Shown here piece by piece: positions 50,301-62,300 of a stretch of DNA of 64,000 bases. Position 1 is the first letter of the stretch. Every line of letters begins with the position of its first letter. A program made the translations under genes and the position numbers. The notes under the pieces were generated by a model. It worked only from the letters and a program-made list of their open reading frames with translations, was not told where the DNA came from and searched no databases. Source of the stretch: Haliclystus octoradiatus (Eukaryota; Cnidaria; Staurozoa; Stauromedusae; Haliclystidae); NCBI GenBank assembly GCA_916610825.1, contig OU744450.1:6468030-6532029 (forward strand), written 5' to 3'.

Positions 50301-53300
50301 GTTGATATTGCACTTACGTGGATTATTGTTATACAAAATGCATTATACATTATTTTAATTTATTAATATTTGATGTATTTATAAATTCTGGAGCCATTTA
50401 AGCATGTATGACGTCAGAGTTTTATTATCATTTGGGTGACCAATACCTTGCAATCTGTAGCTATTGTAAGGTCATGAACCTTTCATTGTTAGTTCATGGA
50501 AATTCCTTCACTTTAAATTACTTGAACTTTTGATCAAGTTAACCAAGCTAGTAAGGTTAATTGAAAATGTTATACTTTTGTTACAGAAATCTAAACTTTG
50601 CGAATTGTTACTAAAAGCAATGGTTGCACAAACAGAAGACAAGGTATTGTACCAGCTAAATTCATGGGCGTAACTAAATGATTTTGACCATGGGAGGTTT
50701 TGTTAATTTTGCCCAAGAAATAGGAGTGGCATTTGCATATTTGGAAGCTTCGGTCTGTTCCTTCAAAATTGAACAATTTTGCTTCAAAATTGAACAATTT
50801 TGCACTTTTTTGTATCAAAATTGCCAGAAATATGATTCAAAATTGTTAGGGGTTGTCTCCCAGGATTCACGATTGTTGTTATATTTTTATTAGTTTTCAT
50901 ATCGATCCTCTAATTCACAATTAAGTTACATGTTGTCAGGTAATTTAAATTCATTTTCATACCAACTTTATGAATTTTTAATTCAAGGAACATTGATTGG
51001 CTACATTTTAATTTGAATCAAAATTCATTATCAGCAACGTCTTGTATTCTATCTTAAAAATGGTTTCTGTTTGCAGGGTAACTGGTTTTGCTGTCTTGGA
51101 ATAGTTGTTGAAAAGTTAACTGAAACACGTAATATTGAACTGCTCAAACCATTGAAGGTATTATTGCAGGTCCAATGAGGCCCATGTTATCGTAATAGTA
51201 CAGCTAACTTAGCTTTAGGAAGTCTACAAAGGTCTCATAATTTTAAAGTTTTGAGAAATCATGGTACTCTACAGGCTTTAATCACCATGACACTAAATCA
51301 ACTTTAAGCTTCGGGAAATCATTCACAACTTCCAAGTGAAAACGTGTGCCTATTTTGATGAGATATAGCAAAATTCAAAGCTGCCAAAGGTGTTGCTACT
51401 TGCTTACGTCGAAGTTTCAACAATTTTTAGTTCAAAAATGTTGAGGGTTGATCCCGATCATCATTTTCCTTTGCGCGGTATTTCTCAGAGATTGATATAT
51501 GGCAGACAAGATTACTTGTTGATGCGCCTTTTTACGATACAAGCACATACAGCAGACTGTGGAATCAATTATTAAACACATTTGCTTCTTGTTTAAGCAT
51601 TATTAACGTTACTTCCTGTCGACAATACAAAAATTATGGAAAAAGGTTGAATGCATTTTTACTTTCTTGAGACAAATGTTAAACTCTACAAGTTGCAACA
51701 CCTCTCAAAAATCACGAAAGTGGCTAAACGCTTGCGATTTTACCCATACAAGTTATGAGCATTTGCCCCATACTTTAGATGCCTTCAAAACCGATGTTGA
51801 GGAGAGTGTGAGTGAGTGATTTCGCTCAAACAAATTCGATAATGTAGGGCCTACATATTATCTTTCAACAAAATGAATCATCATTGATCTCTTAACAATA
51901 ATATCTTGAAAGTTACTTTCAAATAAGTTCTTTGTTGTCATTATATGTTAATATGCTAAATCATTTCATAGAATATTAAAGGCCTACTAGACAGACCTCT
52001 GATGATTAGAATCAAGGACTGCTTTGTTCATAATCAGTTCTGAGCTTGTACAGAGGGATATTAATGCAGGTCTTTTCGCGGGTGTCGATTTGTTATATCG
52101 GCACACGTAGTAAACCCCTGCGACAAATTACATTACTATGAAACCCAGTTATTATCACAACTGTGGAGCAAGCAATAATTGTGATATTAAGCGGATTGAC
52201 CACATGGAGCACAAATATTTCATGAAACAATAGAGAACAAAAGAAACAATAGAAATGTCAAACGCAGAAATAATGATCCGAAGCTCTGAGACTGATAACA
52301 AAATGGACATTTAATTTTGTAAACAAACAATTTAGAAAATGTTCAAATAAAAACAAGAATAGAAATAACAATACCTACTGTACAGAATAAATGTCATCTG
52401 AATTATTAATTTAAAATAGCTTGTTCGCTCAGTTCGTGTCAAAATTATTATTACATAATTCATGTGATTCAGTGCGCTTCATGTTTCATCATGTATGTTC
52501 GATCAATTAATTGTCTTAGCAACAGAGTCTGAAATATAACTAATTGCGCGTAACTTGAGATTTTCTTTGTTATAGTAATTAGGGGAAGTCCCATAGACCA
52601 TTTAAATATGCAAAAGACCTTGCTGAGAAATATTTGTTGCTTGTTTGTTTAGTATTTTATATTTAGTCTAGTCAATCTATGGCTAAAAAGGCTGAAACCT
52701 AAAAATATGCAATCTATGATGTACTGAAAGTAGAATAAAATCGCACACCAATACTTGTGCTCAATTTCTAAAGAATAACAAACCTTGCATTGTGTGATCA
52801 AATTCAAAGAAATCGTGACGCGAAGCTTGTTTTCAATCAAAAAGCTGTCTAGAAATTGTGATATAAAGCGGAATCAGGATATTATCAAGAGTGGTATTAA
52901 GCGGATAAAATTAGTTGAATTTCATAGAGAGCGGTCACTGGTTTCTGAAAAATCGTGATAATAGGCAGGTTGTGATATTACCCAAGGTGGTGTTAACAGG
53001 GTTTCACTGTACTAACATATTCATTTATTATTGAAAGGCCGGCAAAAAGAAAGAATGCCATCTCTGTCCTTTTAGTACAATCATTGTCATACCAAATCTA
53101 TACTTGAATTACTCTAGTGAATATCTTATGCAAAATTTCTCACATGTCATTAAAAACAATGGAAATTAGTTGACCTTTTGAAAATTTACACAATTCATCA
53201 TTTGTCCGCCTTCGCGGACACCTGTCTTATGTGGACAAAATCCTTCAGTCTGTTGTATGTCCGATTAGGACAGGTTTGAATGTAATGTCATCTCATTTTC

Positions 53301-59300: not shown

Positions 59301-62300
59301 TTTTTGCATCCACATACTAATTTTATTGTGTACTTAGAAAATACACTCAAATGATGTCTCTGCCATATACAAAATCTAATGAAATCTAGTTAACACACCG
59401 AAAACTAGACTGTATAGTCAATATAGATAGATTATAGGAATCAGGCTATTTCACAGTGACGTTAATTAAGCATTGAATTACAAGTTCACATATACAAGAC
59501 ATGACAGCTTGATAATTACAATTCATACACATATAGTTATGCACAGTTACGCCACAATGGACAGCTGCAAGCATTGCTTTGACTTGTTACTTCGTCTCTC
59601 TTCCTCTTTAGCTCTCATAAAATTGAAAAATTCTGGAGTTACTGGCAAAGGTCCATTGGAAAACATTGCCACAAAGTTATTAGAAAATGAACTCACAAAA
59701 ATGACAGATGAAGGTTTGTGTATTATTATTATTATTGTTATTATTATTATTATTATTATTATTATTATTATTATTATTATTATTATTATTATTATTATTA
59801 TTATTATTATTATTATTATTATTATTATTATTATTATTATTATTATTATTATTATTATTATTATTATTATTATTATTATTATTATTATTATTATTATTAT
59901 TATTATTATTATTATTATTATTATTATTATTATTATTATTATTATTATTATTATTATTATTATTATTATTATTATTATTATTATTATTATTATTATTATT
60001 ATTATTATTATTATTATTATTATTATTTTATTATTATTATTATTATTATTATTATTATTATTATTATTATTATTATTATTATTATTATTATTATTATTAT
60101 TATTATTATTATTATTATTATTATTATTATTATTATTATTATTATTATTATTATTATTATTATTATTATTATTATTATTATTATTATTATTATTATTATT
60201 ATTATTATTATTATTATTATTATTATTATTATTATTATTATTATTATTATTATTATTATTATTATTATTATTATTATTATTATTATTATTATTATTATTA
60301 TTATTATTATTATTATTATTATTATTATTATTATTATTATTATTATTATTATTATTATTATTATTATTATTATTATTATTATTATTATTATTATTATTAT
60401 TATTATTATTATTATTATTATTATTATTATTATTATTATTATTATTATTATTATTATTATTATTATTATTATTATTACTATTATTATTATTATTATTATT
60501 ATTATTATTATTATTATTATTATTATTATTATTATTATTATTATTATTATTATTATTATTATTATTATTATTATTATTATCGCCACATTTGTTTTGTTGT
60601 TATTTTGCAGTCCATGAAGCTACGAAGCTTTTAATTTTGAAATTGGTTTCAACATGGGCATCCCTTTTTGTATCTTCAATACCTCAATCATTGATTAACT
60701 TCATCAAGGTAAGTCTTCCAATGTTAACTATGCTAATGTAACGGGTGCAGTTGATCCTGTTGTAGTGGTCACCACTAAACATCTTCCACCTCTCAACGGT
60801 GCTCACTTTGATTTCTCAAGTGAATCTTGTGTTAAATCAACCCTGTATATGTAGGCCATTGCTCTTGACCGTAGCAACCAGATTATCTAGATCTAATAGC
60901 TGGATATTAAAGTGTCCCGTTGTAGTCCGTACAAAGTTATCGGCTATCCAATCATCACACTGAGATAGTGTTGCTACATTCTTAACATTCTTCATTTTTC
61001 CTAACGCATGACAATCATCAGAAGAGCATATCTTTGCGTTGCGACAGCAAATCAATTTGGCTAATGATTAACCAATCATGATTAACCTTTATACCTTTAA
61101 CCTTGATATTTTGTAGTACAGTGTAACCCGCTTATGTGCAATTCGGATAAGTGAATTTCCCGCTTATCTGCAACCTGGCTTTGAAACCTGTTGAACAATT
61201 TTTTGGTCAAGTCCTTGGTAAACAATTTCGGATAACTGCAAATTCGGATACATGCAATTACAACCGTTGGCAATTTTGACTTGCACTTATGCGGGTTACA
61301 CTGTATAACTTTTGATATTTAATTTTATCGGGCATCGCGCAATTCAAAAGCACATTAACATAATTAAAACATTCATTATTGTTCACGTACATTATTTCTG
61401 GGAATCAAATTTATCGACTGTTACGCCTCTGTTAGTTTTGACCTCTAAATAATTATATGACCTGGTGTTCTGTTTTGAATAGCTAAAAGTACACATTCTC
61501 AACAATTTTATTACTTTAGAAATAAACCAGCCCAAATTAACCCAGCAACACGGGGTACTCATTGCTAGTATATATCTTTATATACATATACATAAACCTC
61601 TGGAAAATTGATCCAAGGGCCGCTTTGTTCATAATCGGCTCTAAGCTTATACGGAGGGATATTAATGCAGGTCTTTTCGCAGGTGTCGATTTGTTATATC
61701 GGCACACGTAGTAAACCCCTGCGACACAATAGTTTATGAATACTCATAAAGAAAAGCAAACTCAATCACGCATCAACATGACAAGTTTTCAACATTATTC
61801 TTCTGTAATCTTTCGTTATTTTAGGCTGGTTTGACTTTGAAATCAGCAACTGCGAATGTCAGAATCGGGTATTTGCAAGTTGCTCTGGCAGCGTTCAAAG
61901 GTATTACACTACTGCAGTTTTCAAACTGTGTTATTGTTTCAAATTTAATGTAGGTTTATGTATGAGCATAGCATTGTTTACAATATTACAATATGTGTGT
62001 TCTTTTTACAGGAAACACATTATCTAGCGCAAAAGAATTAATCCCTCTTCTTCAAGAGGTAATTATTTGGGAAAAATTTGATATTGATTGATGTCATATT
62101 TTAATCAAATTAGATCATGTTGATTCATTTCTGTTGCTTACATGATTCAAACTTCTGAACTTGTGAATTTGAAGTTTATTGATTTATTCTTGATACCAAA
62201 TATTTAATTAGATGGTCAAAGTTAACCTACAGTCATGGCCGTAACTACCTACTCCTTACTGTGTGGATATTTCTTATGTTCCCTGACAAACTCTGTGTGT

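Follow-up and report, generated by a model that had tools for sequence, protein, structure and literature searches.

What are the five similar units that lie in the introns of the GCN1 gene of Haliclystus octoradiatus, in a 64,000-nucleotide (nt) stretch of contig OU744450.1 (positions 6,468,030 to 6,532,029; hereafter the window, within which the GCN1 units are numbered)? A preliminary description had taken them for box H/ACA small nucleolar RNAs (snoRNAs), with a snoRNA-derived short interspersed element (SINE) as the alternative. Our analysis indicates that they are very probably copies of one intron-encoded, cis-amplified box H/ACA snoRNA family, predicted from sequence to guide the modification of U3899 in 28S ribosomal RNA (rRNA) through hairpin 1 and of U754 in 18S rRNA through hairpin 2. 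Nine copies were found in the genome, five in GCN1 (A to E), two in RBM25 and two in DHX15. Their assignment as H/ACA guides is supported because the copies covary in structure, because six of the nine possess both boxes and because two rRNA matches are placed at 14-nt spacing.

The structure was tested on an alignment of the nine copies (A3), after being drawn from copy A and an eight-row consensus fold. With the four-helix H/ACA structure, 93.0% of 258 cells were paired, and 8 of the 29 pairs were changed on both sides (13 such cells), as in the upper stem of hairpin 2, where a G-C pair becomes A-U in the DHX15 copies and a C-G pair becomes U-A in RBM25_a. The observed values were reached by 0/500 shuffles for the percentage paired, 1/500 for double-changed pairs, 0/500 for double-changed cells and 0/500 for the covariation score. 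Structures slid by 1–3 columns gave 30–49% paired cells and 0–1 double-changed pairs, a comparison in which drawing the structure from copy A and the consensus favours it with respect to the cells paired. The paired changes noticed previously in hairpin 1 therefore represent real covariation in the nine-row test. Box H has the motif ANANNA and lies in the hinge; it was present in 7/9 copies, and an ACA was located one base past the second stem in 8/9, with conservation ending just beyond it; the ACA of H/ACA snoRNAs characteristically lies 3 nt before the 3′ end. Within GCN1, the hinge and terminal boxes were as first described, each being present in four of the five units (AUAUUA in A, B, C and E; ACA in A, B, D and E).

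The claim that each unit folds into a hairpin-hinge-hairpin was reproduced in part. In single-sequence minimum-energy folding, A, B and E took the two-hairpin form, and the 3′ half was paired otherwise in C and D. Fold z-scores were -2.11, -2.64, -2.54, -0.76 and -1.75 for A to E, -0.39 for RBM25_b and -1.41 and -1.34 for the DHX15 copies. The two-hairpin structure rests on covariation and not on single folds. Several observations count against the H/ACA reading: further pair types were reached by 62/500 shuffles, 7/9 copies have an unpaired position in the lower stem of hairpin 2 (the same one in each), single-sequence folds are weak for GCN1_D and RBM25_b, box H is absent as ANANNA from GCN1_D (AUAUUG) and DHX15b, and GCN1_C carries AUG in place of ACA. 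Copies missing a box (C, D and DHX15b) may be less stable.

The five GCN1 units, of about 134 nt, are in register at 51993, 54575, 55673, 59160 and 61594 (142 nt compared). The remaining four are 84–92% identical to the reference copy and all are on the + strand, as is the host. Their edges are sharp, because the mean pairwise identity in 10-nt bins drops from 0.71–1.00 within the unit (with 0.56 in the bin at its final boundary) to the chance level of 0.19–0.40 in the 150-nt flanks. The host was identified from spliced exon peptides, with exons picked by eye, which matched Pfam PF24993 GNC1_N (E 1.5e-26); a PDB search with the GCN1 exons gave weak matches only (best E 0.0074). Units B, C, D and E are flanked on both sides by exons that were read, the next exon being 97–628 nt away. 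The exon at 53,617 follows unit A by 1491 nt; on the other side of the unit, the exon was represented by weak tblastn matches only, with human GCN1 as query (49,906–50,106, E 0.16; 50,795–50,890, E 16). Numbered relative to the intron of unit A (n), the units occupy introns n, n+1, n+2, n+5 and n+7. This order fits introns 7, 8, 9, 12 and 14 as originally assigned, and the presence of five sense-oriented units in GCN1 was borne out.

H/ACA snoRNAs in animals are usually intronic and sense to their host. The 262-Mb genome was searched for further copies, the counts being lower bounds. A DNA search with copy A led to 8 places, a pattern derived from the right arm of hairpin 2 (≤3 mismatches) gave 9 forward, 0 reverse and 0 control matches, and BLAST with the DHX15a copy returned the identical 9 places. 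All nine copies found are sense and lie within introns of protein-coding genes, with the upstream exon of unit A weakly supported; none of those found in the 262 Mb was intergenic or antisense. DHX15 was identified with E 3.7e-110 and RBM25 by visual reading of the exons for its RRM and PWI domains, two RBM25 exons having given nothing useful from PDB or Pfam. When applied to 187 kb of sequence surrounding the three host genes, model R2 recovered the nine copies at 121–152 bits; next came matches on the antisense strand of copies B (25 bits) and C (16 bits), and two matches at chance level (14.6 and 12.1 bits).

These data bear directly on the possibility that a snoRNA-derived SINE, or another short retroposed RNA, landed repeatedly in GCN1. 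Such an element would account for copies occupying several introns with unrelated flanks, and H/ACA retroposition has been documented in mammals (PMC8178906). It is nevertheless extremely improbable here, since only nine copies were found in 262 Mb, all sense, in introns of three genes and grouped by gene; no target-site duplications above chance surround them and they have no poly(A), the longest A run within 30 nt on the 3′ side not exceeding 5 nt; and conservation tracks the pockets and the paired bases, with compensatory changes. The genome-wide count and orientation, proposed beforehand as a check, together with the covariation, the boxes and the rRNA matches, support the initial preference for H/ACA snoRNAs over a SINE.

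An unrooted tree of the snoRNA family splits by host (GCN1 100/99, DHX15 97/95, RBM25 88/86). Hairpin 2 identity is 0.97 within GCN1 and 0.80–0.86 between hosts, the corresponding values for hairpin 1 being 0.82 and 0.49–0.55. Selection appears to act mainly on hairpin 2, because it changes far less than hairpin 1 both within GCN1 and between hosts. The tree suggests, as the most likely history, a single move into each host with subsequent spread from intron to intron inside it (cis-duplication), or else concerted evolution, two histories that the tree data do not separate. Selection would have kept hairpin 2, while hairpin 1 and the boxes drifted in single copies. The copies have decayed unevenly: C is without ACA, D and DHX15b are without a canonical box H, and hairpin 1 of E misfits the target described below.

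In H/ACA snoRNAs, a bipartite pocket pairs with rRNA around a uridine placed about 14–16 nt before box H or ACA. Targets were sought among the 5′ part of the native 18S (1138 nt) and human rRNA pieces and small nuclear RNAs (snRNAs), with 28S represented by parts and U3899 given in human numbering; the larger human rRNA pieces were checked against a published modification table (PMC6182160). At 14 nt before box H, 28S U3899 ranked first of 1040 uridines, 86 of them known human pseudouridines, for hairpin 1 of GCN1 A, B, C and D, and it stayed first for these four with spacings of 13–16 nt and when the left edge was moved. Hairpin 1 of D forms 5+6 pairs with the site and has zero mismatches. 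Column shuffles reached the A–D mean in 0/1000 and the A–E mean in 2/1000 cases, but the 14-nt start and the left offset had been set by eye after viewing the match and the shuffles did not refit them. This weighs against the assignment, as do the single A.C mismatch that copies A, B and C each carry in hairpin 1, the failure of hairpin 1 of E to fit U3899 and the lack, in the same target scan, of a convincing hairpin-1 target for the four RBM25 and DHX15 copies. Human 28S U3899 is 100% pseudouridine in the table of PMC6182160, and the site is intact in one 27-nt 28S-like stretch of this genome, the single mismatch of which lies outside the site. We consider it quite probable that hairpin 1 of GCN1 A–D guides the U3899-equivalent, as predicted from the pairing.

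Another candidate for hairpin 1, 18S U1667/1668, was rejected. With free geometry, its best score was reached by 304, 151, 215 and 326 of 500 shuffles for A, B, C and D, and by 24/500 for E; 28S U3899 replaced it once the pocket was fixed at 14 nt from box H. Separately, hairpin 1 of RBM25_b (L006:1444-1576) contains a possible pocket for U44 of U2 snRNA, 14 nt before box H, which was third of several sites with similar scores.

For hairpin 2, the fit to 18S U754 (human U805) at 14 nt is common to all nine copies and the pocket core is invariant in 9/9. The sequence GUUUACU-[U]U-GAAAA is exact in the native 18S, which was aligned by BLAST to the human one at 77–79%, and provides 7+5 Watson-Crick pairs. 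A search for rRNA and snRNA complements to the second-hairpin pocket had been recommended in the preliminary description; the pocket strands given there extended too far, since the left one ends, and the right one begins, with bases that belong to the upper stem. When only Watson-Crick pairs were counted, 7+5 pairs were reached by 0/1000 shuffles in the native 18S and 0/400 in the human target set, and with one base of freedom by 1/1000 and 1/400, respectively.

Hairpin 2 could nonetheless act elsewhere, at another rRNA site, on an snRNA or without directing any modification, the match to U754 being due to chance. We regard this as rather unlikely, but a series of observations points that way. 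The table of PMC6182160 shows no pseudouridine at human 18S U805. With wobble pairs, shuffles reached the hairpin-2 pairing in 14/1000, 43/1000, 17/400 and 67/400 cases, the last with one base of freedom as well; looser scoring gave 152/2000 and 72/2000, and the nine-copy energy score 34/1000. Reversed and complemented target sets yielded up to 11 pairs against the 12 observed, 18S U804 fits with 6+6 pairs if the stem edge shifts, and U1 149/150 and 28S 1335 score slightly higher if a spacing of 17–18 nt is allowed, the scan having covered parts of 28S. These points are set against the rarity of the Watson-Crick match among native 18S shuffles, the invariance of the pocket core and the next best other site at 14-nt spacing, which has 10 pairs; in addition, no CAB-like UGAG was seen by eye in the terminal loops. 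The excerpt of a fly pseudouridine paper (PMC9997552) holds nothing on the 18S site. Guidance of 18S U754 by hairpin 2 of all nine copies is thus predicted as probable, and is held less certain than the hairpin-1 target because the site is unmodified in human and the looser controls weaken it.

Two further possibilities for hairpin 2 were discarded. The wide pockets led to 28S and U1 sites at 17–18 nt, but G-U to A-U changes and standard pairs place the bases concerned in the upper stem, and the spacing is off. The U5 loop site U46 gave 9 pairs. As a side observation, an 18S copy (genome G000, C24, L041) is broken after GCTGAAACT by foreign sequence, which by eye may be an rDNA-inserted retroelement.

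Finally, the units might be structured intronic elements acting in cis on the splicing of GCN1, RBM25 and DHX15 rather than released guides. All nine copies being sense and intronic would agree with this, and two of the three hosts are splicing factors. We judge it very unlikely, since such an element would not be expected to carry boxes H and ACA at a 14-nt distance from pockets with matches to two rRNA sites, and the GCN1 units are separated from the following exon by anything between 97 and 1491 nt.

Animal H/ACA snoRNAs are released from the spliced intron; dyskerin, NOP10, NHP2 and GAR1 protect them, and a uridine is offered to dyskerin by each of their pockets. As members of an H/ACA family, the units would likewise be trimmed from the debranched intron after splicing, and bound and protected by the same four proteins. 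Each pocket would then present a uridine to dyskerin for pseudouridylation, namely the 28S uridine equivalent to human U3899 for hairpin 1 of GCN1 A–D and 18S U754 for hairpin 2 of all nine copies. More tentatively, and with somewhat less than even confidence, we propose that a lineage-specific pseudouridine at 18S U754 would be guided by the nine-copy family through its unchanged hairpin-2 pocket. Hairpin 1 would be free to switch target (28S U3899 in GCN1 A–D, another or none in RBM25 and DHX15), introns of GCN1, the ribosome-collision sensor, and of two RNA-processing genes would contribute jointly to the dosage, and functions would be split by the loss of single boxes or arms.

An Rfam search, also suggested at the outset for the H/ACA family, matched no known one. 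Covariance models gave no H/ACA match and no match on any unit at gathering score. At E ≤10 (GCN1_A, B and C, both RBM25 and both DHX15 copies), the sole matches touching a unit were antisense C/D models on RBM25_a, which scored 19.8 and 18.4 bits where the cut-offs are 39 and 44, respectively. The units are a new H/ACA family of a normal kind of RNA, without an Rfam match and with an unusually large array in the same gene. No snoRNA in GCN1 introns was found by title or listed abstract in the open-access literature searched.

With regard to its proposed function, the family resembles yeast snR11, listed in PMC8307265 as the guide for pseudouridine 2416 of 25S rRNA. Yeast 25S U2416 is probably the human 28S U3899 site, and hence the uridine targeted by hairpin 1 of GCN1_A–D; this equivalence is based on a Um lying 5 nt downstream in both lists (2421 in PMC8307265, 3904 in PMC6182160). 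The proposed likeness is one of function, through the target site; no Rfam H/ACA model matched the units. With regard to its organization, the family resembles cis-duplicated snoRNA families, where copies of one snoRNA occupy separate introns of a single host and vary outside their guide regions, which are retained; the spread of copies between host introns is documented for chicken (PMC2653536) and human (PMC8178906). Five H/ACA copies in one gene are unusual because the same-host habit in human is mainly that of C/D snoRNAs, H/ACA families tending to scatter over different hosts (PMC8178906). Intronic snoRNA clusters are also known in flies (PMC1821038 and PMC13228274). The Drosophila mfl/Nop60B cluster likewise has one snoRNA copy per intron and a host tied to ribosome function, but its four-isoform array consists of a C/D snoRNA and its H/ACA snoH1 is described as one gene in one intron (PMC1821038). 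The present family provides a clear case of H/ACA cis-amplification. It adds one likely target modified in human, and probably in yeast, and one predicted 18S site unmodified in human, and its nine copies at different stages of decay would allow a test of which of the two halves, and which of the boxes, is protected by selection.

Table 1. Members of the snoRNA family and predicted pockets of unit A. GCN1 coordinates are positions in the window; bits are scores of model R2.
Feature	Position	Strand or orientation	Details
H/ACA unit GCN1_A	51994..52128	+	box H AUAUUA 52058-52063; ACA 52123-52125; 151.9 bits
Unit A hairpin 1 pocket, left arm AGAAUC	52008..52013	+	predicted to pair with 28S GACUCU, one A.C mismatch
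Unit A hairpin 1 pocket, right arm GCUUG	52044..52048	+	starts 14 nt before box H; predicted to pair with 28S UGAGC, 2/5 wobble
Unit A hairpin 2 pocket, left arm CUUUUC	52072..52077	+	last five bases predicted to pair with 18S GAAAA
Unit A hairpin 2 pocket, right arm AGUAAAC	52109..52115	+	starts 14 nt before ACA; predicted to pair with 18S GUUUACU
H/ACA unit GCN1_B	54576..54710	+	box H AUAUUA 54640-54645; ACA 54705-54707; 148.2 bits
H/ACA unit GCN1_C	55674..55808	+	box H AUAUUA 55738-55743; AUG replaces ACA at 55803-55805; 146.6 bits
H/ACA unit GCN1_D	59161..59295	+	AUAUUG replaces ANANNA 59225-59230; ACA 59290-59292; 139.2 bits; best predicted hairpin-1 guide
H/ACA unit GCN1_E	61595..61729	+	box H AUAUUA 61659-61664; ACA 61724-61726; 147.5 bits; hairpin 1 misfits shared 28S target
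RBM25 copy	C4:28289822-28289955	sense, intronic	genome search
RBM25 copy	C4:28295351-28295483	sense, intronic	genome search
DHX15 copy	C8:15910845-15910975	sense, intronic	genome search
DHX15 copy	C8:15913406-15913536	sense, intronic	genome search

Other features were observed in the window. Near-perfect palindromes rich in GTTCATGAAC occur at 53930-54032 (42-nt arms, 93% complementary) and at 58400-58580, and may be small inverted-repeat transposons. Weak matches to microRNA models near 53,937-54,025 were rejected; the best, mir-2009, scored 37 bits against a cut-off of 90, and they fall on the palindromic repeat, outside the units. An ATT/TTA microsatellite of about 860 bp (59721-60580) lies in the GCN1 intron preceding the exon at 60,611, and a full-length gene for the U4 spliceosomal RNA is located at 16785-16924 on the + strand (120.4 bits).

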